Assembly (NCBI RefSeq): GCF_014279655.1
Contig: NZ_CP047946.1
Coordinates: 1,736,001 to 1,800,000, forward strand
Length of the DNA stretch: 64,000 nucleotides
Reading direction: 5' to 3'
Origin: Synechococcus sp. ROS8604
GTDB taxonomy: Bacteria; Cyanobacteriota; Cyanobacteriia; PCC-6307; Cyanobiaceae
Made by a program: the position numbers and the translations under genes
In this document: in pieces, positions 1,548 to 17,314 of the stretch
Layout: each line of letters opens with the position of its first letter
How positions within the stretch are numbered: position 1 is the stretch's first letter
Notes under the pieces: model-generated
The model's input: only the letters and a program-made list of their open reading frames with translations
The model's database searches: none
What the model was told of the DNA's origin: nothing

Positions 1548-2773
1548 TCCGAGTCCTCCGGTAAGGCCAACAGAGTGAAGGCTTGATCAGGTTGCAAAAG
1601 CGGTAGCAAGGACTGTTGCAAGCGTTCAACCGTCCAGGTCTGCATGTAGCTGAGCGGAGACAACAACGTTTGGGTTCGCCCCCAAAGGGATTGGGATCCA
1701 GCAATGGCAGCAACGGATCCAGGCGCTTCCAAGCTGAAGCGCAGGCCATTTCCCACCAATTGCTGTGCCCGATGCAGCTCCTCACTAGCGATGGCTTCCA
1801 GCGAAGCCCGTTTCAATTCCTCCTCGATCACGGCTTCAACCCGATCGATCTGGTCCTCGGGGCAACAGGCTTCCAACATCACCACACTTCCCTGTTCCAT
1901 CACCGTGACGTCCATATCAATGGATTCCACGATTTGGAGATCTTCCCTTAACCGTTGCACCAATCGACTCCGCCTTCCCTCGGTTAGAAGAGTCGTGGCA
2001 AGGTCTGCGCCCATTACGCTGTCTTGATCGTTGGCTGCCGCCATCGGCCATGCCATCAGCAACCGTGCTGCTTCCAGGCGAGGGAATCGGGTGCTTTGTC
2101 GTCCGCTTTGAAACGCAAGCGAACGAGAGGCGGATGCACGTTCGTCCCCCTGGTCAAGATCGTCTTGAAGCTCAGAGAGGCGACTCGAGTGGATCTGCTC
2201 CAACAAACTCGCTGTCACAGCGCCACTGATGGCCAAACAACAGTTGGGGCCGCGATACCTCCTGCTGTGAAATTGGCGCATTCCCTCTGGAGTGCTATCG
2301 ATCAAACTCTTCTCCCAACCAAGAATGGGACGGCCGTAGGGATGCTGTCCAAAGCCTTGAGACAACAAGGTTTGGAACACCTGCTCGTCGGGTTGATCTC
2401 GGTACTGAGCAATCTCTTCAAGCACCACATCCCTCTCCATGCCGTAAGCGTCCTCTCTCAGGGCAGGATTCAGCACAAGGTCAAGCAACAGGTCGAGGGC
2501 GTTCTGAGCGCAGCTGGAAGGCACCAAAACGTGGAAGTGCACATCATCAAAACCCGTAGCCGCATTGCTGCTGCCACCAAGGGCCTCAATCCGACGATCA
2601 AATTCGCCGGCCTGCAACGTTGCACTGCCCTTAAACACCATGTGTTCTAAAAAGTGGGCAAGGCCCTCTTCCCCTTGGTCTTCCCAGGTACTTCCGGCTC
2701 GACACCAAAAGTCGAGACAGGTGAGGTCTGCGTCTGGCATCAGGGCAGTCACGGTTCGACAACCGTTGTTCAA
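1544..2773 (-). CDS. M16 family zinc metallopeptidase, active subunit
   Basis: About 409 residues with an intact inverted zinc motif in [12 protein letters not shown] near residues 38-49. A downstream [18 protein letters not shown] segment supplies the third metal ligand, a Glu. This is the catalytic partner of the inactive M16 chain encoded directly downstream, with a 4-base overlap. The first start codon available is TTG at 2773. However, the frame stays open upstream to a TGA at 2825-2827 and would add about a dozen residues ([14 protein letters not shown]). That extension has no ATG or GTG; a CTG at 2815 is the only candidate. The 5' end is therefore uncertain. It is transcribed divergently from pcyA, with fewer than 100 bp between starts. 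Confidence 0.9.
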
Positions 2774-2860
2774 GAGCTGATGCTGCAGCCCAGGGCCGGA
2801 GGCGATCTCGTTCAGGGTCCCGTGTCAAAGTCCCATTCTGTTCTGTCCCTCGCTGGACTG

Positions 2861-3598
2861 ATGTCCGAATCCACCAACGGTCTTGAATTGCATCCGCTGG
2901 TGACCTCCCTAGCGGAGCAAATTCGCACGTGCCGGACAGCTCTCCCAGACCTCTCCCCTCTTGCTGTAGACCCAGCATTTGAGGAGATCAGCGGCATGCT
3001 GGATGGTGAAACGCTCTTCATTCGCAACGAGCTGCATCAATGCCTTGGTCTCCGCAAACTGCACCTTGAGATTGCTCGCCTAGGCATGGGATTGCAGATC
3101 CTCCACTGCGTCTTTTTTCCAGATCCGAGGTTCGACCTACCCGTATTTGGTGCCGATATTGTTGCCAGCAAAGCGGGTATTTCGGCGGCGATCGTTGATC
3201 TCTCCCCTGTCTGCAATGCCTTACCAGAGGCGGTGAGTCAACCGCTCAGTGCTCTTCAATTGCCGCCGTTTCAGCAGGTAAGAGACTTGCCCGCGTGGGG
3301 AACCATTTTTTCCCCCTATGTGAAATTCATTCGACCCGTTGATCAGCAAGAAGAGACCTGGTTCGTTGACCTTGTCGCTGACTATCTCAACATCCTGCGC
3401 CAGGCGATTCTGGCAACCGCTCCCGATGCTCTTGATTCACTCCCTACGATCGATCGTCATCAAGGCCAACTCTCCTATTGCCGGCAACAGAAACGCAACG
3501 ACAAGACCCGACGCGTCTTAGAGAAAGCCTTCGGAAGCGCTTGGGCCGATCGCTACATCGAGGACATGCTCTTCGACGATCCTCCACCTCTTCTATGA
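2861..3598 (+). CDS. pcyA: Phycocyanobilin:ferredoxin oxidoreductase
   Basis: 245 residues, the normal length of PcyA. It reduces biliverdin IXalpha to phycocyanobilin with four electrons from ferredoxin, making the chromophore of phycobilisomes and phytochromes. The diagnostic block [21 protein letters not shown] is present. It holds the catalytic His (in LHCVFFP) and Asp (in GADIV) of the ferredoxin-dependent bilin reductase family. The C-terminal [12 protein letters not shown] region is also typical. The ATG at 2861 is chosen because it begins at the expected distance from the conserved core; a longer open frame upstream overlaps the divergent M16 gene. The stop overlaps the next gene's start (ATGA), so it is coupled to a DevBCA-type exporter. 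Confidence 0.95.
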
Positions 3599-4500
3599 AG
3601 CAATTACCTCTATGGGTGATGGTTGGGGTGCTCGGAGCTGCCGTTGTCGGAGCCGGTGTCTGGATCACGCGCCGGCCGGCAACGAAAGTCCAACCCGCTG
3701 CCGCGGTTCAAAAAGTACGTGCTCCGGAAGCGGTTGCTGCCCTCGGCCAACTCAAGCCTGCAGGAGAAGTCCGTCGCTTGGCGGCACCGATGAGTGGCGC
3801 TGGTGGTACGCCGCGCATTGCCGCCTTGCTGGTGAAGGAAGGGGACCCGATTCGCAAGGGTCAACCCTTGGCAATCTTTGATAACCGACCCCAAATCGCG
3901 GCCGAAATCGCTGAGGTGGACGCCCAAATCCAATCGGCTGCGCTCGAAGTGAAACTGCAACAGCGAGAGGTGTCCCGCTATGCAGCAGCGGCCAAGGTGG
4001 GAGCAGCTGCCATGGTGCTCTATGAGGAAAAACAAGATGAGCTCAAACGCTTTCAACAGGAAGGCTTCGAGCTGAGCGCAAAGCGACGAAGCCTCGAGGC
4101 CGACCTTGCTGAAAGCGAACTGCTCTCTCCCATTGATGGCGTCGTGCTCAAAATTCATAGCCGCGTCGGCGAGCGTCCGGGCAGCGACGGTGTGATGGAG
4201 GTCGGAGCCAGCCAAACCATGGAGGCCCTGGTGGAGGTGTATGAGTCGGATATCAATCGCATTTCAATTGGCCAATCCGTCAGCTTGATTAGCGAAAACG
4301 GCGGATTCAAAGGATCACTCGAAGGACGCGTCGAACGCATCACCCCCCAGGTGCGACAGCGAAAAGTGCTTTCAACCGATCCCACCGGTGATGCCGATGC
4401 CAGGGTCATCGAAGTGGATGTGGTTCTTTCTCCAGAGTCGGAAAAAAGAGTGACGCAACTCTCGGGTCTAAAAGTCATTGCCCGCTTCAAGACCCCATGA
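3595..4500 (+). CDS. HlyD/DevB-type membrane fusion protein of an ABC exporter
   Basis: 301 residues. One N-terminal membrane segment at about residues 5-25 ([19 protein letters not shown]) anchors the protein, and the rest is periplasmic. A biotinyl-lipoyl-like half domain ([35 protein letters not shown]) is followed by an alpha-helical hairpin with [22 protein letters not shown] second half domain then reads [21 protein letters not shown]. This is the classical adaptor layout of membrane fusion proteins that bridge an inner-membrane ABC exporter to a TolC-like channel. It overlaps pcyA and the next permease gene by 4 bases each, so the set is one operon. DevB is the heterocyst glycolipid exporter homologue; in a unicellular strain the substrate is unknown. 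Confidence 0.88.
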
Positions 4501-5669
4501 TTCGAGCCTTATGGCGGCAGCGCAGAATTCCCTTGGCATTCTTGATGCTGATTCGTCAGCCCGTTCGTCTAGCGGTCGCTCTGGCAGGCATCAGCTTCGC
4601 CGGAATTCTGATGTTCATGCAGCTGGGCTTTCGCGACGGATTGTTTGACGCAAGTATCGTGATTCATCGCCTGTTTGATGCAGACATCGTCTTAATCAGC
4701 CCACGCTCCACCAGTTCCGTGAGCATGGCCGGCTTCCCCCGCAGGCGACTGATTCAGGCCATGGCCGCTCCTGAAGTGGAGGGAATTACGCCCGTCCACT
4801 GGAATCTGCTGCTTTGGAGAAATCCCGAAACCCTGGGGACACGATCCATTCTTGCGCTGGGGTTTGAACCCAACCATCCCCTCTTCACCGATCCAACATT
4901 GGCAGCAAAAGCCAAGCTGCTTACCCAGAAAGGCCGGGTCTTATTTGACGAAAAATCGCGAGCAGAATTTGGTCCCGTAGCCGAATGGTTTCGGGAGGGA
5001 CGCACCGTTGAAAGCGAAATTGCTGGCAAAAGAGTTCGCGTGGCGGGCCTGATTGGCCTTGGGGCGTCCTTTGGCGCTGATGGCAACTTATTAATGAGCA
5101 GCGAAACATTTTTGGATTTAATTCCAAACACTCCCTCGGGAAGCATCGAAGTGGGCTTGGTTCGCCTTAAGCCTGGAAGTGATGCAGAGCAGGTGGCTCA
5201 ACGCCTTCAATCCCAACTTCCCGACGATGTCACAGTGCTGACAAAGCAAGGATTCATCAATTTCGAGCAAAATTACTGGCGTACAAGCACATCCATTGGC
5301 TTCATTTTTACCCTCGGTGCCGCCATGGGTTTCGTGGTGGGCTGCGTGATTGTGTATCAGGTTCTGTATTCAGATGTCAGCGATCATTTGCCCGAATACG
5401 CCACCCTGATGGCGATGGGGTACAAGCTCAATAGTTTGCTGGGAGTTGTGGTCAGAGAAGGCCTGTTGCTTGCTCTTTTTGGTTACTTACCGGCTTACGC
5501 CGCCGGACAGGGCCTGTACCTCTTGGTGCGAAACGCCACCCAGTTGCCAGTGGCGATGAACACGGTGCGGGCCGTGAGCGTGTTCAGCATGATCTTGATC
5601 ATGTGCATGCTCTCAGCAGGTCTTGCCATGCGCCGACTCGTGGATGCCGATCCGGCGGAGATTTTTTAA
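4497..5669 (+). CDS. devC: DevC-type ABC exporter permease (FtsX/MacB-like)
   Basis: 390 residues. An N-terminal membrane segment (LAVALAGISFAGILMFMQLGFRDG) is followed by a large periplasmic domain at roughly residues 50-250. Three more membrane segments come at the C-terminal end (FIFTLGAAMGFVVGCVIVYQVLYSDV; LGVVVREGLLLALFGYLPAYAAG; SVFSMILIMCMLSAGLAMRRL). This four-helix arrangement is that of FtsX/MacB/DevC permeases. It overlaps the fusion-protein gene (ATGA) and precedes the matching ATPase by 4 bases. Together they form a complete DevBCA-type exporter. The C-terminal RRLVDADPAEIF is a common ending of the DevC family. The cargo cannot be told from sequence. Confidence 0.9.
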   Translation: MIRALWRQRRIPLAFLMLIRQPVRLAVALAGISFAGILMFMQLGFRDGLFDASIVIHRLFDADIVLISPRSTSSVSMAGFPRRRLIQAMAAPEVEGITPVHWNLLLWRNPETLGTRSILALGFEPNHPLFTDPTLAAKAKLLTQKGRVLFDEKSRAEFGPVAEWFREGRTVESEIAGKRVRVAGLIGLGASFGADGNLLMSSETFLDLIPNTPSGSIEVGLVRLKPGSDAEQVAQRLQSQLPDDVTVLTKQGFINFEQNYWRTSTSIGFIFTLGAAMGFVVGCVIVYQVLYSDVSDHLPEYATLMAMGYKLNSLLGVVVREGLLLALFGYLPAYAAGQGLYLLVRNATQLPVAMNTVRAVSVFSMILIMCMLSAGLAMRRLVDADPAEIF

Positions 5670-5673
5670 GGCG

Positions 5674-6366
5674 ATGGCAACGAGCTCACTCACCGTTGAT
5701 ATTCATGCGCTAAGCCATTGGTACGGCAAAGGCTCCACCCGCAGGCAGGTGCTGCAAGGGGTGGACTTGCAAATTGCTGCCGGTGAAGTGGTGCTGCTCA
5801 CTGGTCCTTCCGGCTGCGGCAAAACAACCTTGCTCACCTTGATCGGAGCCTTGCGAAAGGTGCAGGAGGGTGACGTTGAGGTGTTTGGACAGCAGTTACG
5901 CGGAGCAGCTCGCGGCCAGCGTCAGCGATTGCGCCGTCGCATTGGCATGATTTTCCAGGGCCACAATCTCTTGCGCTGCCTCACCGCTGAACAAAATGTG
6001 CAGATGGGCGCTGATCTGTTGCCCAATCTTGTGTACAGGGCTCGCCGCGATCAGGCACGGGAATGGTTGCGCTCTGTGGGACTTGAAGACGAGTTAGGGA
6101 AGCTCCCCCATGACCTTTCCGGGGGCCAAAAGCAACGCGTAGCGATCGCCAGAGCCCTGGCAGCCAAACCCCAGCTCCTCCTTGCCGATGAACCAACAGC
6201 GGCCCTTGATAGCGGCACTGGCCGCGAAGTGGTGGAGCTACTCAAGCGCTTGGCGCGCGAACAGTCTTGTTCTGTGCTGATGGTGACGCATGATCCGCGC
6301 ATTCTTGATGTGGCAGATCGTCTTGTTCGAATGGAAGATGGGCGTCTGTACCAGACGATTCGTTAA
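5674..6366 (+). CDS. devA: DevA-type ABC exporter ATPase
   Basis: 230 residues, a single MacB/LolD-type nucleotide-binding domain. Visible motifs in order are Walker A GPSGCGKTTLL, the Q-loop IFQGHNLL, the signature LSGGQKQR, Walker B LLLADEPTAALD, and the H-loop MVTHDPR. It powers the exporter formed with the two preceding genes. The ATG at 5674 is preferred over the upstream frame inside devC because it gives the standard N-terminus and leaves a 4-base gap after the devC stop. The whole pcyA-devBCA run has no internal promoter space, so bilin synthesis and export genes are likely co-transcribed. Confidence 0.92.
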   Translation: MATSSLTVDIHALSHWYGKGSTRRQVLQGVDLQIAAGEVVLLTGPSGCGKTTLLTLIGALRKVQEGDVEVFGQQLRGAARGQRQRLRRRIGMIFQGHNLLRCLTAEQNVQMGADLLPNLVYRARRDQAREWLRSVGLEDELGKLPHDLSGGQKQRVAIARALAAKPQLLLADEPTAALDSGTGREVVELLKRLAREQSCSVLMVTHDPRILDVADRLVRMEDGRLYQTIR

Positions 6367-6404
6367 GTTGGTGCGAGTAAAAGAGTTGGAATCTTCCAAA
6401 ACGC

Positions 6405-6560
6405 ATGGCTAAGCGCAGAAACCTCAAGAAGGAAAAGCAGGAGCGCAATCGCGCTTACGCCCGCAAATTCAAGAAGCGCAAGCTCCGCAATGACGGCCGT
6501 GGTGAAGGTGCTGGCAACGGCGTAACCGGAACTGCAAACAACGGTGGTGCTGCGGATTGA
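6405..6560 (+). CDS. Small, very basic conserved-type protein (51 aa)
   Basis: A 51-residue ORF. The first 28 residues are dense in Lys and Arg (MAKRRNLKKEKQERN, then YARKFKKRKLR). The tail is Gly/Asn/Ala-rich and ends in GGAAD. It lies 38 bases after devA on the same strand and is closed by a strong terminator about 50 bases later, so it is likely the last gene of that transcript. The composition suggests RNA or ribosome association, but no family function is known to me. I believe similar short proteins occur in other marine picocyanobacteria; that is from memory and not shown here. Confidence 0.7.
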   Translation: MAKRRNLKKEKQERNRAYARKFKKRKLRNDGRGEGAGNGVTGTANNGGAAD

Positions 6561-6611
6561 TCGCTTTGGCGTGACCCTGCACCGTTTGCATCAAAACCAT
6601 TTGCATCAAGA

Positions 6612-6635
6612 AAGAGGGGGAGACCCCTCTTTTTT
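6612..6635 (+). terminator. Rho-independent terminator after the pcyA-devBCA operon
   Basis: A perfect 8-bp stem AAGAGGGG/CCCCTCTT at 6612-6619 and 6624-6631 with a GAGA tetraloop, running into a T tract at 6630-6635. It is placed 50 bases after the small basic protein and before the glycosyltransferase gene at 6678. Confidence 0.88.
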
Positions 6636-6677
6636 GATGGCTTTAGGCTGAACCCCTCTTGCCCCTATTTCGCGCGG

Positions 6678-7610
6678 ATGTTCATCAGCGTCGTCATCCC
6701 CACCTACAACCGGCGCTCGATTCTTGAGAAGTGCCTGCTGGCACTGGAACGTCAAGATCCCAGCGGGGAAATCGAAAACTACGAAGTGGTTGTCGTCGAT
6801 GACGGTTCCAGCGACGGCACTCCCGACTGGTTGCGACAGGACGCCGCTCGCTTCCCCCATGTTCGCCTTGTGGAACAGCAGCATGGCGGACCTGCAGAAG
6901 GTCGTAATCGCGGCGTTGATCATGCCAAAGGAGATGTGATCGTCTTTATCGATAGTGATTTAGTGGTCACATCAAGCTTTCTCGCATCCCATGCGCGCGC
7001 CTTAAGTCGTCGTTGGAATCAGCAGGGAAATCGTCTCTGTTTCACCTATGGCGCTGTGATCAATACAGCCAATTTTGATCAACCAACAGCAGAACGACAC
7101 AAACTACGAGATCTCTCCTGGGCGTACTTCGCAACAGGAAACGTGGCGATCGACCGTGAGGTTTTGGAACGATCCGGGTTATTTGATCTTGGGTTCCGCC
7201 TCTATGGATGGGAAGACCTGGAGCTTGGAGAACGGCTGAGGCAAATGGGCGTTGAGCTGGTGAAATGTCCAGAAGCGGTTGGATATCACTGGCATCCAGC
7301 ATTTCGCCTAGACCAAATCCCAGACCTGATTCGCGTCGAGCGGGAACGGGCACGCATGGGCTTGGTGTTTTATCGCAAGCATCCCAGTCGTCGGGTCCGG
7401 TTCATCATTCAATTCACCTGGTTGCATCGCCTGCTTTGGTCCTTGCTCACCGTCGGAGGCCTCCTCAATGAACGCAGCCTTCGCCCGCTGATGGCCTGGC
7501 TGATTCAACGGGGCCAACCATCCCTGGCTCTGGAGTTGTTGCGCCTACCCCTCAACCGGATTGGTGTGGAAGCGCTGTATCGCGAAGCCCGGCAAGCAGG
7601 ATTGCACTGA
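6678..7610 (+). CDS. Family 2 glycosyltransferase
   Basis: 310 residues. The GT-A fold is clear: ISVVIPTYNRRS at the start, VVVVDDGSSDGT for nucleotide-sugar binding, GPAEGRNRG, and the metal-binding FIDSDLV (the DxD position) near residue 95. A GWEDLELGERLRQMG segment near residue 180 is typical of GT2 acceptor-site regions. There is no strong membrane anchor; the C-terminal half has a few hydrophobic stretches (FTWLHRLLWSLLTVGGLL). It is expected to transfer a sugar to a cell-surface glycan. The donor and acceptor are unknown. The gene is followed after 5 bases by rsmE. Confidence 0.88.
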   Translation: MFISVVIPTYNRRSILEKCLLALERQDPSGEIENYEVVVVDDGSSDGTPDWLRQDAARFPHVRLVEQQHGGPAEGRNRGVDHAKGDVIVFIDSDLVVTSSFLASHARALSRRWNQQGNRLCFTYGAVINTANFDQPTAERHKLRDLSWAYFATGNVAIDREVLERSGLFDLGFRLYGWEDLELGERLRQMGVELVKCPEAVGYHWHPAFRLDQIPDLIRVERERARMGLVFYRKHPSRRVRFIIQFTWLHRLLWSLLTVGGLLNERSLRPLMAWLIQRGQPSLALELLRLPLNRIGVEALYREARQAGLH

Positions 7611-7615
7611 ATCGA

Positions 7616-8374
7616 ATGGTGGCGGAGCTGCGTCGGCTACTGATCGAACCCTCCCGCATGGCCGACCGTGATGGCGATGGATGCCTTGTGCTTCGCGATG
7701 ACGAATGTCATTATCTTCGTCGGGTGTTACGGCTGCGTCCTGGAGCGCCTGTGGAGGTTGTCGATGGCCGCGGCCACCTTTGGGAGGGATTGCTTCAGGA
7801 GAAGGGGCAACTCCTGCTTCCCGGCATTTGTCACACCACAACCCCTGCCAGCACCCCTCGGTTGGGCCTCGCAATTGCTCTGGTTCGACGGGGCATGGAT
7901 GAGGTCATGCGCATGGCCTGTGAATTGGGCGTGGATTGCATCCAACCCTTGAAAGCAACGCGATCCACACCCCAAGCGGACTACAAACCAGAGCGCTGGC
8001 AGCTGATCCTCAAAGAAGCGGTCGAGCAATGCGAGCGGCTCTGGATGCCCCAGCTCCTCCCGCTGACATCCACGGGTAGCTGGTGGACGCGGCCGGACAC
8101 CAGCGACACGCTGGCCATTGCCACCACACGCTTAGAAGGGCTTCCTGCTTTAGAGCCTTGGTTGCAGCGCCAAACCCCTGGGAACAACTGCATCTGGCTT
8201 TCGATTGGCCCGGAGGGAGGCTGGGACCCTCAGGAGCAAGCGAAAGCCCTGAGGGAAGGATGGTCAGCGGTGAGTCTCAGTGAGGACATTTTGCGCTCTT
8301 CCACAGCAGCGATTGCCGGGGTGGCAACGCTGAGCAGTTGGCGGCGTACGACGCCAACTGGAGATCAGACCTGA
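7616..8374 (+). CDS. rsmE: 16S rRNA (uracil-1498-N3)-methyltransferase RsmE
   Basis: 252 residues, the usual RsmE length. It is a SPOUT-class SAM-dependent methyltransferase that methylates U1498 in helix 44 of 16S rRNA. The N-terminal PUA-like part has HYLRRVLRLRPGAPVEVVDG, and the C-terminal trefoil-knot region has LSIGPEGGWDPQE and SEDILRSSTAAIAGVATL, the SAM-binding signatures of the family. The ATG at 7616 lies 5 bases after the glycosyltransferase stop, so the two genes are probably co-transcribed. Confidence 0.93.
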   Translation: MVAELRRLLIEPSRMADRDGDGCLVLRDDECHYLRRVLRLRPGAPVEVVDGRGHLWEGLLQEKGQLLLPGICHTTTPASTPRLGLAIALVRRGMDEVMRMACELGVDCIQPLKATRSTPQADYKPERWQLILKEAVEQCERLWMPQLLPLTSTGSWWTRPDTSDTLAIATTRLEGLPALEPWLQRQTPGNNCIWLSIGPEGGWDPQEQAKALREGWSAVSLSEDILRSSTAAIAGVATLSSWRRTTPTGDQT

Positions 8375-8381
8375 AGCGGCG

Positions 8382-8861
8382 TCAGCTACTGAATAGCTCT
8401 GATGCCATGTCCTTGAACCCCTTCAAATTTCTTCCCGGACGGCGACGCTCAGGACGCAGCGCACGACCGGGCTGGACCATCTCCGGAGCGAACGTGCTGA
8501 GCCTGACGACAGGACGCTCGGATTCCGCCTTTGCCAGTTCCGCTGCAATCGCTTCAGCTGTGGTGAGGGAACCTGCTGCGGCCGCTGGTGTTGATGGCTT
8601 CAGTGCCGATGGCGCTGGTGCCGATGGCGCTGGCACTGAAGCCGTCGCTGCGGAAGCGACAGGGGCAGAAGCTGCAGGAGCCGAAGCCGCGGCTGGGGTG
8701 GTAAGCGCTGCAGCTGGTTTGGAAATAGCGGGAATGGGGGCAAGAGCCTCCTCTTGACCGTCCTCCTCAGGAAGGTCTCGAACAGGCGCGATCTGAATCG
8801 CCTGGTCGCTCGAAGCGCCTTCCTCGAGGTTGAGGAAAAAGCCTTTGCTCTTCAGCGCCAT
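8382..8861 (-). CDS. Ala/Pro-rich hypothetical protein
   Basis: 159 residues, no recognised family. The N-terminus (MALKSKGFFLNLEEGA) and C-terminus (RRRPGRNLKGFKDMASELFSS) look structured. They are joined by a long low-complexity linker of Ala, Pro, Ser, Thr and Val (roughly residues 40-105, with alternating APASAP-type steps). This is the pattern of a disordered tether or a linker between two short interaction motifs. The ATG at 8861 is preferred over an upstream codon because it gives a compact start. It is convergent with rsmE, 8 bases from its stop, and divergent from the chimeric leader at 8921. Confidence 0.65.
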   Translation of the reverse strand: MALKSKGFFLNLEEGASSDQAIQIAPVRDLPEEDGQEEALAPIPAISKPAAALTTPAAASAPAASAPVASAATASVPAPSAPAPSALKPSTPAAAAGSLTTAEAIAAELAKAESERPVVRLSTFAPEMVQPGRALRPERRRPGRNLKGFKDMASELFSS

Positions 8862-8920
8862 GCCAGGTTCCGGTGGACAACGTGGGCTGATTATCCAACC
8901 CAAACCGTCTGAATGGGCTG

Positions 8921-8958
8921 ATGCTTAGGGCAGTGCAACACAGCTCGATGGTTTTGCC
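8921..8958 (+). repeat. 38-bp direct repeat, copy 1 (left of the inserted glycosyltransferase)
   Basis: A perfect 38-base match to 9992-10029, starting with ATGCTTAGGGCAGTGC and ending in GGTTTTGCC. Similarity continues more weakly to about position 8982 (shared AAACATCA and TGGGG), so the full duplicated unit is about 60 bases. Copy 2 is the first codons of the DUF92 gene. The two copies bracket the glycosyltransferase gene with a period of 1071 bases. Confidence 0.95.
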
Positions 8959-8992
8959 CCCCGTAAACATCAAATCTTGGGGACTGTTGTGA
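8921..8992 (+). pseudogene. Truncated 5' copy of the DUF92 gene acting as a possible leader ORF
   Basis: A 23-codon ORF starting MLRAVQHSSMVLP and ending in TGA at 8990-8992. Its first 12 codons are identical in DNA to the start of the DUF92 gene at 9992. The protein resemblance continues past the perfect repeat (PxxNIxxWGxxL in both), so this is a piece of a related DUF92 allele. Its TGA overlaps the GTG start of the glycosyltransferase at 8989 in a GTGA quartet, the arrangement used for translational coupling elsewhere in this window. It may therefore be a remnant that now supplies the translation signal for the inserted gene. Confidence 0.6.
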
Positions 8993-9936
8993 GCGCCGAG
9001 GTGCCAAACCTTGAGGTGGTGTTGGCAACCTGGAATGGTGCTAGCCACCTGCATGAACTGCTGCTCTCGATCCGAGCTCAGAGCTTGAAGCCCACACGCC
9101 TCTTGGTACGCGATGACGGCTCGACTGACCACACCAGAGAGATCATCAAAGAATCAGCGAACCGTTGGCCGGGTTGGCTGATTGAACTGCCAGCGAAGTC
9201 TCGACTCGGCAGCAACGGAAATTTTGAAGCCTTGCTTAGCGAGAGCCGCGCTCCATTTGTCGCCCTTGCCGATCAAGACGATCGCTGGGATCCAAACAAA
9301 CTCAAAATTTTGATGGATACGATGCTGGCTGCAACTGCGCTTCACCCTGCGCACACCCCTCTTCTCGTCTACAGCGATCTGCGCCTGATCGATGCAGAGG
9401 GGCTGCCTTTAGGGCCATCGTTTCTGCACTACCAAAGGCTCAACCCAAGGCGCAACTCCCCCAATGCGCTTTCCCTACAAAACGTAGTGACAGGTTGTGC
9501 CAGCCTCATCAATCGGTCGCTGATCGAAATGGCATTGCCCCTCCCTGAGCAGGTTGTGCAACACGACCACTGGCTGGCCCTGATCGCAGCCTGCAAGGGC
9601 CAGGTTCTGTTCATCGACCAACCTCTCCTGTCGTATCGCCTCCATGAGGCCAATGCGGTGGGTGCGATCGGGACTGGAAGGGCTTATTTTCTAGAGCGGT
9701 TGCAGTCCTGGGGGAGAGAGCACGGGCCACGACAGCGACTAAGGAACTGTTTGCATCAAGCGCAAGCTCTCAATAAAAGATTTGGAGAGCAAGATTTAGC
9801 GATCACCCAGTTTCAAGCAGGCACTCCCCTCGAGCGCCTATTCGTGATCGCGACAGGGAAACTGCACAAATCAGGCTTCACCCGACAGCTTGCACTGCTG
9901 ATCCTCTTGCTGCGGTCCCTGATAAGCGGCCTGTGA
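8989..9936 (+). CDS. Family 2 glycosyltransferase (rhamnosyltransferase-like)
   Basis: About 315 residues. It has the GT2 motifs EVVLATWNGASHLHELL, LLVRDDGSTDHT and VALADQDDRWDP (metal-binding DQDD), then VVTGCASLINR and HDHWLALIAACKG, the pattern of rhamnosyl- and related O-antigen transferases. The start is taken as GTG 8989; a TTG 12 bases upstream is possible, but the GGGGA at 8979-8983 fits a ribosome site for GTG. The gene lies inside a 1071-bp segment bounded by direct repeats of the DUF92 5' end, which suggests it was gained at this locus. Its likely role is surface polysaccharide or LPS decoration. It is unrelated in detail to the other GT2 gene at 6678. Confidence 0.85.
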   Translation: MSAEVPNLEVVLATWNGASHLHELLLSIRAQSLKPTRLLVRDDGSTDHTREIIKESANRWPGWLIELPAKSRLGSNGNFEALLSESRAPFVALADQDDRWDPNKLKILMDTMLAATALHPAHTPLLVYSDLRLIDAEGLPLGPSFLHYQRLNPRRNSPNALSLQNVVTGCASLINRSLIEMALPLPEQVVQHDHWLALIAACKGQVLFIDQPLLSYRLHEANAVGAIGTGRAYFLERLQSWGREHGPRQRLRNCLHQAQALNKRFGEQDLAITQFQAGTPLERLFVIATGKLHKSGFTRQLALLILLLRSLISGL

Positions 9937-9991
9937 AAAAAGCTTTATCTAAGAAGCACGCATCTCACTGAAAACGCCCACGCTGGGGTTA

Positions 9992-10029
9992 ATGCTTAGG
10001 GCAGTGCAACACAGCTCGATGGTTTTGCC
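9992..10029 (+). repeat. 38-bp direct repeat, copy 2 (5' end of the DUF92 gene)
   Basis: Identical over 38 bases to 8921-8958. This copy forms the intact first codons of the DUF92 gene, so it is probably the native position, while copy 1 is the duplicated end left at the other side of the glycosyltransferase. Confidence 0.95.
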
Positions 10030-10771
10030 AGACCAAAACATCACGATGTGGGGGATAGCCCTGCTTCTCAATGGCGCGCTGATTGCCCTTGCGCAGCGCC
10101 TCCCCCTACTCACGCGCAAGGGTTGGGTGCATGCCGGAATTCTGGGAACGATCCTCTGGGGCTGCCTTGGCTGGAGAGGCTGGGTTGCCGTTGTGATCTA
10201 CCTCGTGTTGGGATCACTCGTCACGCGCCTCGGCTTTGCGCAAAAACAAAAGCAGGGGCTTGCGGAGGCGCGTGGAGGAAGGCGAGGACCCGCCAACGTG
10301 TGGGGGTCTGCCTTCACTGGAACCGTGATCGCTCTCTTGATTGGCGCAGGCATTGGCTCGGCAACGCTCTTGCTGATCGGATTCGCCGCCAGCTTCGCTG
10401 CCAAACTTGGCGACACCTTTGGCAGCGAAATCGGCAAACGTTGGGGACGAACCACCGTTTTGATCACCACCCTGCACAGAGTGCCAGCTGGAACGGAAGG
10501 GGCCGTGAGCTTGGAAGGCACCCTGGCCAGTGCCGCCGGCAGCCTTGTGATGATGCTGGTGATGGCGGGGTTGTCGTTCGTGACCACGCCCACGGCGATG
10601 GCCGTGGTTGCGATTGTGGGTCTCATCGCAACCCTGCTGGAAAGCCTGCTGGGAGCTCTGGCTCAGGAGCGGGTGCACTGGTTAACCAATGAAATCGTCA
10701 ACGGATTGCAGACGGCCTGGGCTGCCGTTTTAGCCATGCTGGTCGCGATTCCTCTGGGTCTTGCTGGCTGA
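9992..10771 (+). CDS. DUF92 / VTE6-like integral membrane protein (putative phytyl-phosphate kinase)
   Basis: 259 residues with about six hydrophobic segments (for example WGIALLLNGALIALAQRLPLL; IALLIGAGIGSATLLLIGF; SLVMMLVMAGLSFVTT). The family signatures RRGPANVWGSAF, AKLGDTFGSEIGKRWG and VPAGTEGAVSLEGTLASAAGS are clear. In plants and Synechocystis, DUF92 proteins (VTE6) phosphorylate phytyl phosphate to phytyl diphosphate for tocopherol and chlorophyll salvage; that role is inferred by family. The ATG at 9992 falls in the 38-bp repeat; an internal ATG at 10019 or 10046 is also possible. The 3' end overlaps the convergent sigma-factor gene by 74 bases. Confidence 0.85.
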   Translation: MLRAVQHSSMVLPDQNITMWGIALLLNGALIALAQRLPLLTRKGWVHAGILGTILWGCLGWRGWVAVVIYLVLGSLVTRLGFAQKQKQGLAEARGGRRGPANVWGSAFTGTVIALLIGAGIGSATLLLIGFAASFAAKLGDTFGSEIGKRWGRTTVLITTLHRVPAGTEGAVSLEGTLASAAGSLVMMLVMAGLSFVTTPTAMAVVAIVGLIATLLESLLGALAQERVHWLTNEIVNGLQTAWAAVLAMLVAIPLGLAG

Positions 10772-11546
10772 ACGGAGTCCGTGCTGCCTGTCGCAGCAAG
10801 CTCAGCGCCTCTCGAATGGCTTTGCGTAACAACCCTGGTGCAACCTTCTCTTTCAGAGCAAGATCTCTGATGGGAATGTTGTCGACGTAGCGAGCCAGAA
10901 GCCAGCAGCGCTGGCGTGGCTCGAGAGCCTTCAGTGCCCCCTGCAACCAGCGAAGCCTGGGTTCCTCCTCATCCGCTTCAAAGGTCGATGCAGACATGAC
11001 TGGGAGAGCCTCGATCTGATCGAGCAGGGAGCTTCTCAACTCTCCGTCCACCGCCTGAATGGCAGGGGCAACATCAAGCGAATCCACATGGCCCAAGGCG
11101 TGAGCCATCAGGGCCTCCCGCCAGCGCTCAACAGTCACGTCGAGTGATGCAGCAAGGCCTGTCTCGTCCAGCGGTTCCAGCCTCTCTTGCAACCGTTGAG
11201 CCCGAAGACGCATCCCCCGGCTGTGCAAGTCCTTCAAGCGCCAAGGAATCCTGAGCACGTGTTGGCGATCGCGACGGAAATGCAGGATTTGACCGTGAAC
11301 CCTTGCCAGCACATAGGTGCTGATGCGACATCCACGTTGAGGGTCGAAATTGGCCAAGCCATGGATCAACCCCAAGCAACCCTCTTGCACTAACTCGTCC
11401 TGCTCCCCTGGATAGCGGGCCGCCTGACGGATGGCGGCATGGTGCGCTAGGCCAAGGTGTTCGAGCACAGCGTCGTTGCGCTCAAGAATTGGCTTGGGCA
11501 ACGATCGGCGCTGCTCGCGGCGTCGAAGGCTTTGAGAAGAAAGCAT
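10698..11546 (-). CDS. RNA polymerase sigma-70 factor, group 3 (SigF-like)
   Basis: 282 residues. Region 2 is clear (DELVQEGCLGLIHGLANFDPQ, then ISTYVLARVHGQI and LRIPWRLKDLHSRG); the RIPWRL stretch is typical of the SigB/SigF/WhiG-like group rather than primary sigma factors. A degenerate region 3 follows, then region 4 with LEPRQRCWLLARYVDNIPIRDLALKEKV and a helix-turn-helix. There is no region 1.1. The N-terminus is rich in Arg. It should direct a specialised regulon; cyanobacterial SigF relatives control pili or stress genes, but the targets here cannot be told. Its 3' end overlaps the DUF92 gene by 74 bases tail to tail, so antisense interference is possible. Confidence 0.85.
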   Translation of the reverse strand: MLSSQSLRRREQRRSLPKPILERNDAVLEHLGLAHHAAIRQAARYPGEQDELVQEGCLGLIHGLANFDPQRGCRISTYVLARVHGQILHFRRDRQHVLRIPWRLKDLHSRGMRLRAQRLQERLEPLDETGLAASLDVTVERWREALMAHALGHVDSLDVAPAIQAVDGELRSSLLDQIEALPVMSASTFEADEEEPRLRWLQGALKALEPRQRCWLLARYVDNIPIRDLALKEKVAPGLLRKAIREALSLLRQAARTPFSQQDPEESRPAWLKRQPRPSAIR

Positions 11547-11667
11547 GAAGCGTGGGTGTTGACGACCCTTTCAACGTCGCTTTCATCGCGCATTCTCCCC
11601 TCCTTCTTTCCGATGAAATGGTCCACTCGAAAGGATGAAAGCCGGTTCATCTTTTCGAGGGGAGACG

Positions 11668-12351
11668 TCAAGACATCAGCAAAGGCGTGCATTGAGCGTG
11701 GGGCTCCAGACCAGCCCAATTGAGAAGGGGCTTCCAGTGCTGAAGACGCTGATAAATCCAGTGATGGCCAGTGCTGTTGAGATGAATCCCATCAGGTTCC
11801 AACCAGGTGAGCCAATCAGGCTCTGCTGCCATCGCTTGGTGCAGGCTTAAAAACGGAACATCTAACTCAAGGCATGTTTCTTCCAATTGCGCTTCATGGA
11901 TGGCCACGGCCTCATTGCTGTACCAAAGGCAGTCAGCGAAGGGCATGACCGCTTCATCCACCACGCTGAGCCCCATCACCATGACGTTGGTGGCAGGGGT
12001 CATCACCGATAGCAATTGCTCCAGCCCGAAGCGAAACGCTTCAGCCGTTAGTTGCTGCCGTCCATCGCACCTGCCAACACGAGCGCTGTCATTGAGGCCC
12101 ACAGAGAGGAGCAAGCCATCGGGCTGCTGACGACGGAGCTCTCCGCGGCAACTCCATTCTTGTTGCCAACGCTGAGCAATGCGCTCCAGTCCATCTCCAC
12201 GAACACCAAGCCCGTACACCACGGGGGCAGAGGGCAATGTCATACATTGACGCCTCAAGCGTTCACACCATCCCCCACCCTCTGGATCCCCCCATCCGTA
12301 CACACCGCTATCACCGATCACGACAAGCTTGCGGGGCGCTGTTGTTATCAC
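11668..12351 (-). CDS. SGNH/GDSL-type esterase or lipase
   Basis: 227 residues with all four SGNH blocks: VIGDSGVYGWGD near residue 11 (nucleophile Ser15), the oxyanion Gly in GVRGDG near residue 49, GLND near residue 85 and the catalytic pair in PDGIHLN near the C-terminus. There is no signal peptide, so it is likely cytoplasmic. It starts 22 bases after the phosphonate permease stop on the same strand and probably belongs to that operon. Its substrate is unknown. A link to organophosphorus ester use is only suggested by the neighbourhood. Confidence 0.85.
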   Translation of the reverse strand: MITTAPRKLVVIGDSGVYGWGDPEGGGWCERLRRQCMTLPSAPVVYGLGVRGDGLERIAQRWQQEWSCRGELRRQQPDGLLLSVGLNDSARVGRCDGRQQLTAEAFRFGLEQLLSVMTPATNVMVMGLSVVDEAVMPFADCLWYSNEAVAIHEAQLEETCLELDVPFLSLHQAMAAEPDWLTWLEPDGIHLNSTGHHWIYQRLQHWKPLLNWAGLEPHAQCTPLLMS

Positions 12352-12373
12352 TGGCGGTCACGCAATCCAGATG

Positions 12374-13903
12374 TCAGCTTTGCAGCCAGAGTGCGCGGCA
12401 GCGGTCACTGAGTGATTCCCCACTGATCGTGAGGACGCAGTAACAACAAAGCACCAAGACCACAGCAGCCCAATGAAAAGAGCTGAGTGATTCCAGCAGC
12501 TGCCAGCCCAAACCACTTCCACCAATCACCCCCACCACCACGGTTTCTCGGAGAATCACATCGCTGCGATAAGCCCCATAAGCCAAATAACTGGGACTTT
12601 GAGGACTGAGCAGGCCATACAACCAACTCATCCGCTCTGAACTCCCCATCGCCCTGAGCGCTTCTTGACGCTGACCGCTTTGTTGCTGCAGTCCTTCAAG
12701 CAGCAAACGCCCCATCACTCCACTGTTGTGCAGACCGATCGCCAAGGCTCCAATCGCCAGGCTTGGCCGATTGCTGAGCAGCAGAAGGAGCACCATCAAC
12801 GGCGGTGGGATCCAACGCATGCAAGCCCAGAAGATCGAGCAACACTGATGCCACCTTGGCGACGGCCATAGGAGCAAGGCCAGGGGGGGCAGTCCGATGG
12901 CAATCCCCGCAGCCAACCCGGTGAGAGCCAGCGTTTCCAAGATCATGCGCAACCAGGGCAGTTCCATGGCGGCGGCATTCAGCTGGGTCCAAGAAGGAAC
13001 CTCCAACCCAAGCCAACTGAGGCCAAAAAACAAATCAGGAACGAGGTGTCTGAGCCAAACCGTGCCGATCACTCCCAAAACGATCGCCAAGCTGATGAAC
13101 AACAGCATTCGACGCTGACCATGAACGCCGACATCGGAACGTTCTCGCCAAACCCTCAACAGCTGCTCAAGCATCAGCATCACGGCCGCTAACACCCATA
13201 AACCTGTCCAGAGCTCGCGGAACTGCAACGACTGCAAGGTGAGCTGCAGTTCGGTGCCAAGCCCCCCCAAACCAAAAACCCCGAGCAAGGTGGCGCTGCG
13301 CAAGGCACATTCGAGTCGGTACCCCCCATAGCTCAGGAACACAGGGCCCATCCCTGGGTTTAGAGCCGTCATCAAAGCGGACAGCGGATGCACCCCAGCG
13401 CTGATCAAGGCATCGAGAGGACGGTGGTCAGCGCTATCGAGATGGTCGCGCCAAATCCTGGCGACGAGAGCGCTGTAAGGAATCGCGATAGCAGCGACAG
13501 CAACGTAGGGATGGAGCCCAAACACTTGCAGCAGCAACAGGCCCCAAACCAACTCATGCACCGCTCTCGGGATGGCGAGGGCGCCTCGAAGTCCTTTGGC
13601 TGGCCAGGAGGGAAGTGTCCAGCTTCTCCACACCACATCCGCGCAAGCGCTTCCTAGCAACACGCCCAACAGCAAGCTGAGACTCCAGCTCAATAGAGCT
13701 GTGGCCATGGTGACGCCCAGACCATGCCAAACCGCATGCAAAACATCGGGATCCATGGATGGATGCAGGGCGCCCCAAAGGCATTGCTGCCAAATCGACA
13801 GACCACCGCCATGCAGCCCTGTCCAAGTGACGATCAAAACGGGCACCAGCGCCATGGAAGGCAACAGGGTGAGAAGCGGTGCCGCTGGTTTCAGGCGGTT
13901 CAT
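12374..13903 (-). CDS. phnE: PhnE-like ABC transporter permease with two fused permease domains
   Basis: 509 residues, about twice the usual PhnE length, with two similar halves each holding about six membrane segments. The first half contains RAVHELVWGLLLLQVFG, the ABC-contact IPYSALVARIWRDHLD and LSYGGYRLECALRSATLLGVFGLGGLG. The second contains RWIPPPLMVLLLL, ALAIGLHNSGVMGRLLLEGL and YGAYRSDVILRETVVVGVIGGSGLG. The R-x-x-x-x-GxxGxGGLG endings are typical of phosphonate permeases. One chain would therefore supply both channel halves. It overlaps phnC by 4 bases (ATGA). Confidence 0.88.
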   Translation of the reverse strand: MNRLKPAAPLLTLLPSMALVPVLIVTWTGLHGGGLSIWQQCLWGALHPSMDPDVLHAVWHGLGVTMATALLSWSLSLLLGVLLGSACADVVWRSWTLPSWPAKGLRGALAIPRAVHELVWGLLLLQVFGLHPYVAVAAIAIPYSALVARIWRDHLDSADHRPLDALISAGVHPLSALMTALNPGMGPVFLSYGGYRLECALRSATLLGVFGLGGLGTELQLTLQSLQFRELWTGLWVLAAVMLMLEQLLRVWRERSDVGVHGQRRMLLFISLAIVLGVIGTVWLRHLVPDLFFGLSWLGLEVPSWTQLNAAAMELPWLRMILETLALTGLAAGIAIGLPPLALLLWPSPRWHQCCSIFWACMRWIPPPLMVLLLLLSNRPSLAIGALAIGLHNSGVMGRLLLEGLQQQSGQRQEALRAMGSSERMSWLYGLLSPQSPSYLAYGAYRSDVILRETVVVGVIGGSGLGWQLLESLSSFHWAAVVLVLCCYCVLTISGESLSDRCRALWLQS

Positions 13904-14661
13904 CCGGCCTCGTACAACCGCGAAAGATCAGCAGCAGTGAGTTGGTCTGAAGGTTGATCCATCACCAGTTCCCCATCCTGCAAACCGATCACACGATCAA
14001 AGCGATGCACCAGTTCGGGTTGATGCAAGCTGATCACAATCGCCTTGGCGCCACAATTCAGCGGCCCCTCTGGCGAACGATTCAGCAAGTGATCCAATAA
14101 GTCAGAGGCGATTGCAGGATCCAAATTGGCGATCGGCTCATCGGCCAGGATCAGTTGCGGTTGCTGACGCAGCAAACGGGCAAGCGCAACGCGTTGTCTC
14201 TGTCCTCCTGATAGCTGACGAATCGGAGCGTCGATCAATCCACGCTCGATCAGATCAGCATCCAGCCCAGCTTGCTGAAGGCAATGCTTGCAGGCGGATT
14301 GATCCACGTTGAATAACAGATTGGCCAATCCCCAGATCAGGTTGTGACGGCCCAAAGCACCGCTGTTGACGTTTTGTCCAACGCTGAGCTCCTCGACAAG
14401 CAACAAGTCTTGCCAAAGCATTCCGATCTCCCTTCTTTTGCGGCGAGGCATGCTGCGAATCGACGCACCACACCAACGCACCTCTCCCTGTTCAGAACGA
14501 AGACTGCCATTTGCAATGGCCAGCAAGGTGCTCTTGCCGGCCCCACTTTGTCCCAACAGGGCGATCCTCTCCCCCTCAAACACCGAGAGGGAAATCGAAC
14601 GCAGTCGATCTCCCCTCGGGCCACTCAGGCTGACATTGACCAACTCCAGGAGAGCGGTCAA
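13900..14661 (-). CDS. phnC: Phosphonate-type ABC transporter ATPase
   Basis: 253 residues, an importer ATPase. Motifs: Walker A LLGQSGAGKSTLL, Q-loop MLWQDLLLVEELSV, signature LSGGQRQRVALARLL, Walker B LILADEPIANLDP, and the H-loop ISLHQPE. The IANLDP wording and VQN/GQN-type stretch fit PhnC. It starts with TTG at 14661, overlapping the phnD stop (TTGA), and its own stop overlaps phnE, so phnDCE is tightly coupled. It would energise uptake of phosphonate or phosphite. Confidence 0.9.
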   Translation of the reverse strand: MTALLELVNVSLSGPRGDRLRSISLSVFEGERIALLGQSGAGKSTLLAIANGSLRSEQGEVRWCGASIRSMPRRKRREIGMLWQDLLLVEELSVGQNVNSGALGRHNLIWGLANLLFNVDQSACKHCLQQAGLDADLIERGLIDAPIRQLSGGQRQRVALARLLRQQPQLILADEPIANLDPAIASDLLDHLLNRSPEGPLNCGAKAIVISLHQPELVHRFDRVIGLQDGELVMDQPSDQLTAADLSRLYEAG

Positions 14662-15572
14662 CGAACCTTGCCAAGTTGACGGGCTACATCTTCAATCGGT
14701 TTGTATTCAGACTCTTGAGCCGGAATGAAAACCTTGGCAGAAAAAAGCTTAAGGATGGATGCCTGACGAGAATTGGTAGGTCTCAACCCAAGGATGACCT
14801 TCTGTACTTTCGATGTGAATCCTTTCCCGAAACGTTGGTCGAGATTGGGGCGTGCCAGCCAGTGGTAATCCACATAAGGGGGTGTTTTCCAAATCATTTT
14901 CACCTTGCTTGGATCCACTTTCCCGTTCTTAACGGCCACATCCCAGACCAACTCATTAAGAGCTCCAGCCTGGTAAGAGCCGCTTTGCACCAAAGCGATC
15001 GTGGCATCGTGGCTTCCACTGAAGCCTGCTTGTCCGCCGGCAAATTGCTTTGGAGTCACGCCCGCTTTAGCCAGAAAATGCTGAGGCATTAGTCGTCCCG
15101 ATGTGGAACTTTCTGATCCAAAGGTGAAGCGCTTTCCTTTTAATCCTTTCAGACCATCGATATTGCTAAAGGGTTTTAAGCCCGCTGAAGTGTTGGCAAT
15201 AAAAACACTTTGAAACTTTTCATCAATAGCTCGTTGTGCCAAAACCTGGGCCCCTGGCGTTTGAAGACGAGCCTGAACACCTGTGAGCCCTCCAAACCAA
15301 ACAAGGTCCAGACTTCCGGTCCTAAAAGCACTCACGGCTGCTGGGTAATTGCTAACTGGCACATACCGCACTGGAACCTTGAGTGTGTCGCTTAATTCCT
15401 CGGCAAGTTGGCCGTAACGACGATTTAAACGTTCTGGGTTTTGATCGGGGATGGCTCCGATCCGGAGTGTTGCTTGCGCGTTAGAAGGAAGGACCGTTGC
15501 GCCCTGACTGCAAAGAAGAGCCAAAAGAACAACGGCCCCTTTTTTTCGGACACGTGTCAAAGGATTGGTCAT
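14658..15572 (-). CDS. phnD: Phosphonate/phosphite ABC transporter substrate-binding protein
   Basis: 304 residues with a signal peptide (basic MTNPLTRVRKKG, then VVLLALLCSQGATVLPSNAQA). The mature part starts with LRIGAIPDQNPERL and contains VPVRYVPVSNYPAAVSAFRTGSLDLVWFGG, YQAGALNELVWD and WKTPPYVDYHWLARP, the phosphonate-binding-protein signatures. In Prochlorococcus, related PhnD proteins have been shown to bind phosphite or methylphosphonate. The true ligand here cannot be told. It lies 17 bases after the aspC stop on the same strand and leads the phnDCE set. Confidence 0.9.
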   Translation of the reverse strand: MTNPLTRVRKKGAVVLLALLCSQGATVLPSNAQATLRIGAIPDQNPERLNRRYGQLAEELSDTLKVPVRYVPVSNYPAAVSAFRTGSLDLVWFGGLTGVQARLQTPGAQVLAQRAIDEKFQSVFIANTSAGLKPFSNIDGLKGLKGKRFTFGSESSTSGRLMPQHFLAKAGVTPKQFAGGQAGFSGSHDATIALVQSGSYQAGALNELVWDVAVKNGKVDPSKVKMIWKTPPYVDYHWLARPNLDQRFGKGFTSKVQKVILGLRPTNSRQASILKLFSAKVFIPAQESEYKPIEDVARQLGKVR

Positions 15573-15589
15573 GTTTAAGAAGAATTGAT

Positions 15590-16768
15590 TTAGGGACGAG
15601 TCAACAATCTCTGAAACCGACTCAGTCCTTCTGAAATCGTCTCACGCGAGACGGCACAAGACAGCCTGACGCAACGATCATCGCCAAAGGCACCACCAGG
15701 AACAATCGCCAATCCTTCCTCTTCGAGGGCACGTTCGCAAAAGGCCAACGAATCGGTAATCGCATCAGGCAGGCGAGGAAACGCATAAAAGGCGCCCCTT
15801 GGGGGCACAAGCGTGATGCCTTCCATCTGTTGAAGCCCATGACAGAGATCAGCACGCCGCGTGTTGTAGCTAGCGGCCATCTCACGGACGCAGTCCCGTG
15901 ATCCCTGAAGCGCCGCCAATGCTCCACGTTGAGCGAAGCTGCACACATTGCTGGTGCTTTGGCTCTGTAGGGCAGCTGCGGCCTTAATCACCGTGCTGTC
16001 ACCACTGAGATACCCAAGTCGCCAACCGGTCATGGCCCAGCCTTTGGCAAATCCGTTCACCACAAAACAACGCTGTCTGAGATCTGGTGCTACTGCAGCA
16101 AAACTGTGGTGAGATTCTCCGTCTTCCAACAGATATTCATAGATCTCGTCGCTCATCACCATCAGGTTTGGATGCCTTCGCACCAGCTCTGCCAAGGCCT
16201 GGAGTTCACGGAGATCCAACACCCGACCGGTGGGATTCCCCGGTGAATTGAGCACCAAAAGCTTGGTGGCCGGTGTGATGGATTGCTCGATCAAATTCAG
16301 ATCCAGTCCAAACCCATCGCTTGCTGACGACGGCACCGTGACCGGCTTCCCCCCGGCCAAGCGAACAATTTCTGGATAACTCAACCAATACGGGGCAGGG
16401 ATGATGACTTCATCGCCTGGGTTCAACAGAACTTGGAACAGGTTGTAAATCGCCTGTTTGCCGCCATTGGTCACCAAGACCTGATCGGTTTGGGTGGGGA
16501 TGTTGTTTTCAAGACTCAATTTCTGAGCAATGGCCGCGCGCAGCTCTGGATCGCCTGCAGCAGGGCCATACCGGGTGATGCCATCCCTGAGGGCCTGGAT
16601 CGTTGCCTCAACAATGAACTCTGGCGTCCCGAAATCTGGCTCCCCTGCACTGAGACTACAAACATCAACACCCTGTTGCTGCAGGGCTTTTGCTCGGGCG
16701 CTGATGGCAAGTGTGAGCGATGGCTGCAATGCCAAAGCTCGGTGCGAGAGAGATGGGGGGCCTGGCAT
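15590..16768 (-). CDS. aspC: Class I aminotransferase, aspartate aminotransferase type (Ibeta)
   Basis: 392 residues. It carries SLSAGEPDFGTP, YGPAAGDPELRAAIA, LNSPGNPTGR, SDEIYEYLL, and the PLP-lysine segment FAKGWAMTGWRLGY. This is the Ibeta subgroup that includes aspartate and aspartate/prephenate aminotransferases. The enzyme moves amino groups between aspartate or similar donors and 2-oxo acids. The ATG at 16768 gives the conserved start (MPGPPSLSHRALALQPS); a longer open frame upstream has no homologous look. It is the first gene of the minus-strand run aspC-phnDCE-esterase and is divergent from the VOC gene. Why it sits with a phosphonate importer is unclear; 2-aminoethylphosphonate transamination is a tempting idea without proof. 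Confidence 0.88.
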   Translation of the reverse strand: MPGPPSLSHRALALQPSLTLAISARAKALQQQGVDVCSLSAGEPDFGTPEFIVEATIQALRDGITRYGPAAGDPELRAAIAQKLSLENNIPTQTDQVLVTNGGKQAIYNLFQVLLNPGDEVIIPAPYWLSYPEIVRLAGGKPVTVPSSASDGFGLDLNLIEQSITPATKLLVLNSPGNPTGRVLDLRELQALAELVRRHPNLMVMSDEIYEYLLEDGESHHSFAAVAPDLRQRCFVVNGFAKGWAMTGWRLGYLSGDSTVIKAAAALQSQSTSNVCSFAQRGALAALQGSRDCVREMAASYNTRRADLCHGLQQMEGITLVPPRGAFYAFPRLPDAITDSLAFCERALEEEGLAIVPGGAFGDDRCVRLSCAVSRETISEGLSRFQRLLTRP

Positions 16769-16880
16769 CAGCACGGCACCCCCTCGATGGATGCTCGGAT
16801 ATGTGAAACAACATCCTGCCTGATGTGGCGTCAGTGACAACACCGATGTGCTGATGACAGCCTGGATCGAAATGTTGACC

Positions 16881-17294: not shown

Positions 17295-17314
17295 GGTTTT
17301 GAGCTGAGCAATCC

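Follow-up and report, generated by a model that had tools for sequence, protein, structure and literature searches.

In Campbell-type integration by a single crossover, the homologous segment is duplicated on both sides of the incoming DNA, and each copy is native on one side. Repeats around one gene have also been described for wzy, the O-antigen polymerase gene of Salmonella Typhimurium, for which an excerpt of the published account gives repeats of 113 bp and reports that reversible excision was observed (PMC12074656). In marine picocyanobacteria, gained genes and genomic islands have been reported, including one island with a beta-glycosyltransferase (excerpt of PMC7522525).

Here we describe a locus in a 64-kb stretch of DNA from a marine cyanobacterium (the window; all positions below are positions in it unless a contig is named) where one glycosyltransferase (GT) gene lies between two copies of a 38-bp direct repeat, with a gene for a conserved small protein (HYP) on one side and a DUF92 gene on the other (Table 1). 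Among the listed titles and abstract starts of papers on related insertions, none described this locus. We propose, with a probability of about two in three, that recombination at an identical HYP-DUF92 tract brought in the single GT gene.

Table 1. Positions, strands and supporting evidence of the features at the GT locus
Feature	Position	Strand	Evidence or remark
HYP, conserved small protein, 159 aa, Ala/Pro-rich middle, conserved C-terminus	8382-8861	-	tblastn
GATTATCC box (GGATAATC read towards HYP), likely HYP -10 box	8889-8896	-	relatives' loci; putative role
Repeat copy 1	8921-8958	+	joined to native upstream flank
Conserved element CTTAGGGCAGTGCAACACA in copy 1, probably upstream site of the HYP promoter	8924-8942	.	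57-locus columns
14-codon open frame MVLPPVNIKSWGLL followed by a stop, diverged DUF92 5'-end remnant	8948-8992	+	sequence, similarity test; translation predicted
Insert flanked by the two repeat copies, 1033 bp	8959-9991	+	not present in G006 or in any of the 28 further congeneric loci inspected
Glycosyltransferase family 2 gene, 315 aa	8989-9936	+	PF00535
Repeat copy 2	9992-10029	+	joined to native DUF92 gene; without GATTATCC box
Second copy of the conserved element	9995-10013	.	sequence match
DUF92 integral membrane protein	10019-10771	+	PF01940, TIGR00297; start predicted from relatives

A strain-specific insertion with native outer flanks

We scanned the window for direct repeats using an exact seed of 16. 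The 38-bp pair was the sole direct repeat of at least 28 nt within 6 kb, and this uniqueness places it far beyond chance. The two copies were identical at 38/38 positions, and the pair could be extended without gaps to 58 nt at 88% identity (8915-8972 versus 9986-10043). The repeat scan, PF00535 and PF01940 confirmed what a sequence-only reading of this DNA had described: two copies identical over 38 bases, a GT gene between them and a DUF92 gene downstream.

Counting the genome of the window itself, 31/31 genomes of the genus had the DUF92 protein (one genome per species). From the 30 relatives, 29 congeneric loci (L003-L031) were picked by DUF92. In 29/29 of these loci HYP adjoined DUF92 with no GT match between them, and each was an empty site with one repeat copy, including the locus of G006. 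The sequence-only reading had proposed looking for such a joined arrangement in relatives; what we observed was the opposite of a GT gene kept by all of them. For the 30th relative (G020), whose locus is known from coordinates alone, the coordinates placed one conserved element (described below) at the DUF92 match start. In 6/29 congeneric loci the C-terminal part of HYP alone aligned; the distance from the HYP match to the element was at most 386 nt, which is too short for another GT.

We also compared 28 loci from other genera, which were picked by an element match at ≤2 mismatches, a choice that favours conservation there. HYP and DUF92 were both matched in 54/57 relatives' loci (29 congeneric and 25/28 from other genera; L068, L071 and L078 had no HYP match). 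There was no gene-sized gap in any of these 54 loci (HYP match to element ≤386 nt, element to DUF92 match ≤293 nt), and two elements occurred in G000, the window's own genome, alone among 299. In the relatives examined, these data give no support to the suggestion of a hot spot at which surface genes are swapped.

The nearest genome by DUF92 identity was G006. Using blastn, 17 kb aligned with G006 in two blocks, at 95.7% identity for window 1153-8972 and 95.8% for 9986-18192, and the blocks overlapped by 58 nt in G006, at the repeat. The net insertion in this alignment was 1071 bp, and the tract was duplicated. Within ~1.5 kb of the insert, identity to G006 was 96-100% per 100 nt, except in two bins with many indels in the central part of HYP. 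GT is a strain-specific gain between HYP and DUF92.

In pairwise alignments, L004 and L006 had 465 and 259 extra columns near window ~11600, which may be an alignment effect.

We then assessed which sides of the repeat copies were native. The flank before copy 1 matched the flanks of the clade (100% identity to G006 over 8800-8899), and the flank after copy 2 was the native DUF92 gene. Just after copy 1, we observed 17/30 in-register matches to the best clade members, in a DUF92-like pattern. Mononucleotide shuffles scored as high in 0.11% of cases with 8 clade genomes as the reference and in 0.48% with the 57 loci, and the weak similarity that had been noticed past the 38 bp was real and modest by this measure. 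The left flank of copy 2 had no clear kinship to the native flank (14% of shuffles reached its score for the clade and 4.4% for the 57 loci). In copy 1, the native leader thus appears to run into a DUF92-like 5' end that has diverged, on a basis of ~27 nt, and its earlier description as a piece of a related, non-identical DUF92 allele fits on the same basis.

The downstream gene matched PF01940 (E 2.4e-56, frame from 9992) and, slightly under the cut-off of 205.85, TIGR00297 (E 8.8e-60, 202.4 bits). Of the congeneric loci, 3/29 had ATC in place of the ATG at 9992, and in 4/29 the ATG was not in frame with DUF92, which suggests that translation probably does not cover the first 27 bases of the repeat. 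The DUF92 start is likely at 10019. The sequence-only reading was right to name the downstream gene as DUF92 but inexact in taking copy 2 as its start.

These flanks bear on an origin in situ: a tandem duplication of the DUF92 5' region, with illegitimate recombination putting GT in place of the inside of the first copy, would need no DUF92-like ends from outside. Such an origin would account for the truncated DUF92-like start before GT and the full gene after it, and the left flank of copy 2, which had no clear native counterpart, is consistent with it. The remnant right after the 38 identical positions matched the best clade sequence at 17/30, in surroundings mostly 96-100% identical to G006. 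Because a recent local duplicate should match better than this, we consider an origin in situ unlikely.

The glycosyltransferase gene and searches for its source

GT matched PF00535 well above the cut-off (E 1.9e-16, 60.9 bits versus 23.3), which places it in the GT2 family. No NCBIfam equivalog was matched at its cut-off, and the family matches were glycosyltransferases. Matches to solved structures were weak (best E 7.3e-05). Apart from GT, no frame of 80 aa or more lay entirely within the insert. The insert had a GC content of 55.3%, compared to 55.7% for the window, and unremarkable tetranucleotide use. We rejected the insert as compositionally foreign, as neither measure marked it so; typical GC and tetranucleotide use are expected for DNA from a related background.

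The frame from 8948 ends in a TGA that overlaps the GTG start of GT at 8989 (GTGA), and GGGGA lies just upstream. This overlap and the GGGGA motif suggest that the translation of GT is coupled to that of the short frame. GT and DUF92 may be on one transcript, as a consensus scan of 8800-10200 found no promoter or terminator. The scan neither shows nor contradicts co-transcription of the two genes.

We searched for relatives of GT at several levels. At E 1e-60 or better, GT was matched in 12/399 sampled genomes of the order, its own included, and the other 11 matches were 39-46% identical; there was no close relative among the 399. Within the genus, matches at E 1e-3 occurred in 17/31 genomes (own included) and were mostly weak, the best homologue being that of G024 (42%). 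A search of GTDB genome contigs gave three loci at 29-36% identity and no close donor, and a search of viral contigs gave no confirmed match. Among phages (10 records) and plasmids (270 records), all matches were below 60% identity. A donor with matching flanks was not found either: the 299 genomes of the order searched for two elements comprised one genome per species, and the donor may be unsampled. The sequence-only reading had GT arriving from a related strain. The empty sites bear out the gain, but the related-strain source found no backing in these searches, with no donor and best relatives of 39-46%.

The one neighbourhood of a GT relative that we annotated, in G024, was a polysaccharide cluster, with rmlA-, rmlC- and rmlD-like domains, a bacterial sugar transferase, another GT2 and a Wzt-type ABC gene. 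The window's own genome also contains a fragmentary GT paralogue (C1:192946-193242; 47% identity in one alignment, 49% over 92 residues in another). The fragment (L105:6965-7240, within G000:C1:192946-193242) lies near GDP-mannose pathway domain genes and may be what is left of a decayed copy within a region of polysaccharide genes. The G024 neighbourhood and the position of the paralogue point to a likely role of GT in surface polysaccharide.

A second GT2 gene (window 6678-7610), upstream of rsmE, was kept in the 8 closest relatives, and its C-terminal part was 90-98% identical in the fetched loci. Not every GT in this region is therefore variable.

The conserved element upstream of HYP

HYP is divergent from the GT/DUF92 side, and its tblastn matches adjoined DUF92 in 29/29 congeneric loci. 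It had no NCBIfam family, and the longer frame at 8382-8903 had no Pfam family. HYP was widely kept, and its Ala/Pro-rich middle had indels even compared to the closest genome. Replacement of HYP was suspected because its protein was 72% identical to that of G006, compared to 97% for RsmE. We dropped this candidate, as the DNA was ~95-100% identical outside the indels.

Each repeat copy contains a conserved element. Its 18-nt core was conserved at 86-100% per column over 57 loci, 28 of which were pre-selected by element match, and the neighbouring columns were mostly at 30-80%. The distance between the GATTATCC box and the element was 36-37 bp in all 55 loci measured. In a looser search, the box or a near variant was present in 57/57 relatives' loci, including L022 and L025, which were outside the spacing count. 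The element lay 62-64 bp from the first residue of HYP where HYP aligned from that residue. Relative to the DUF92 match start, it lay anywhere from 4 nt inside to 293 nt upstream; after correction by hand for the match-start residue, this range was ~27 nt inside to 191 nt upstream. As the distance to HYP is fixed and the distance to DUF92 is variable, the element is probably part of the HYP promoter rather than DUF92 coding sequence.

We infer from this arrangement that the HYP promoter may have the box as its -10 and the element as an upstream site. Neither a sigma-70 promoter nor a terminator came up in the consensus scan of 8800-10200, which gave this reading of the box no support. An RNA leader of DUF92 was also considered for the element and judged less likely, as the variable DUF92 distance and the fixed HYP distance speak against it. 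Rfam gave three matches on 8300-10300, all under their gathering scores. Copy 1 has both the box and the element; the box is missing from copy 2, which has the element only.

At ≤2 mismatches, the element was present in 73/299 sampled genomes of the order (19 of the 73, all outside the genus, were not fetched), with two copies in the window's own genome alone. Two of the 73 (L073 and L074) matched the pattern but not DUF92; we left them out, as these matches probably arose by chance. The box and the element (window 8889-8942) were conserved in several genera of the family, and together they resemble a promoter preceded by a site for a regulator. Open papers matching two 13-nt strings from the element concerned liver biology alone, as judged by title and abstract.

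The element could instead be an attachment site for site-specific integration, with GT as the cargo of a tiny element whose recombinase is encoded elsewhere. The direct repeats at both ends fit this reading, as does the widely conserved target sequence, and excision would restore the ancestral site exactly. The insert had no recombinase gene among frames of at least 80 aa and no inverted repeats of at least 20 nt at its ends, and so showed no mark of a mobile element with an integrase or transposase. There was no other gene-sized insert in the 54/57 relatives' loci with both neighbours matched, and the 19-nt element had 0 exact matches in the viral contig collection. The fixed distance of the element from HYP and from the HYP box points to a promoter role. 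Overall, these data make site-specific integration improbable.

Proposed recombination at the shared tract

If GT were ancestral and lost in relatives, a perfect empty site would be the outcome of recombination between the two 38-bp copies. GT would then have to have been lost independently again and again, on branches within the genus and in other genera too, and we found no GT match in 29 congeneric loci and no second element in the other genomes of the 299; the probability of an ancestral GT is very low. Transposition with target-site duplication would explain a direct repeat flanking the insert. However, the insert had no transposase, its ends had no inverted repeats of at least 20 nt (the length range covered by the test), and similarity continued past the repeat. 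Usual target duplications in transposition are shorter than 38 bp, and we regard this explanation as no less improbable. An assembly artefact is scarcely credible: direct repeats can cause misassembly, but the genome is one contig at 99.97% completeness, the insert occurs at one place in it and holds an intact gene, and both junctions join native DNA.

Under recombination at the tract, the incoming DNA would have had GT next to a DUF92-type 5' end and would have recombined through the short identical tract, leaving the tract on both sides of GT. The simplest route would be a double crossover with a donor already arranged as leader-GT-leader-DUF92, in which the DUF92-like start would read MVLPPVNIKSWG. 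The product would be no different after a single crossover with a circular or tandem molecule. Copy 1 would keep the promoter region of HYP and would supply, through the 14-codon DUF92 remnant, a ready-made start for GT. At copy 2, DUF92 would stay intact, likely as the second gene of a GT-DUF92 unit.

The diverged DUF92-like end after copy 1 argues for recombination, as it is hard to explain by mutation since the split from G006. The empty sites, the two-block G006 alignment with its 58-nt overlap and the lack of inverted repeats of at least 20 nt also favour this account. An excerpt of the wzy account quotes a minimum of 23-27 bp for RecA/RecBC recombination in E. coli, which the 38-bp tract exceeds, and one of 44-90 bp for the RecA/RecF route (PMC12074656). 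The tract is shorter than the latter minimum, and this counts against the account. So do the absence of the donor arrangement among 299 genomes and the left flank of copy 2, which had no clear native likeness.

We predict that the same repeats could allow precise loss of GT. A more far-reaching idea is that GT is a reversible single-gene cassette and the conserved element a natural recombination site, where gain and loss would each restore the HYP promoter and the DUF92 leader and would act as a surface-sugar switch under phage pressure. We consider this idea speculative and improbable.

Our analysis gives a clean snapshot of one gene entering a conserved neighbourhood that kept its regulatory sequences at both ends, with no visible mobile element. 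It also revealed, as a side result, a conserved promoter-like element at a fixed spacing upstream of the uncharacterised HYP in several genera of the family.

Similar to Campbell-type integration, the GT locus has a duplicated homologous segment of which each copy is native on one side; unlike in that process, our searches turned up neither a circular donor molecule nor a vehicle. The locus resembles Salmonella wzy, as excerpted, in having a gene between perfect direct repeats and an empty site with one repeat copy (PMC12074656). The repeats differ in length (38 bp compared to 113 bp), and excision was observed for wzy, whereas the GT repeats are known from sequence comparison between strains. 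Similar to the gains in marine picocyanobacteria described in the excerpt of PMC7522525, the gene is present in one strain only. Unlike those gains, this is a single gene between conserved neighbours, and the sequence of the junction reveals the joining. The GT insertion is thus an ordinary gene gain in kind, with an instructive and tidy junction.
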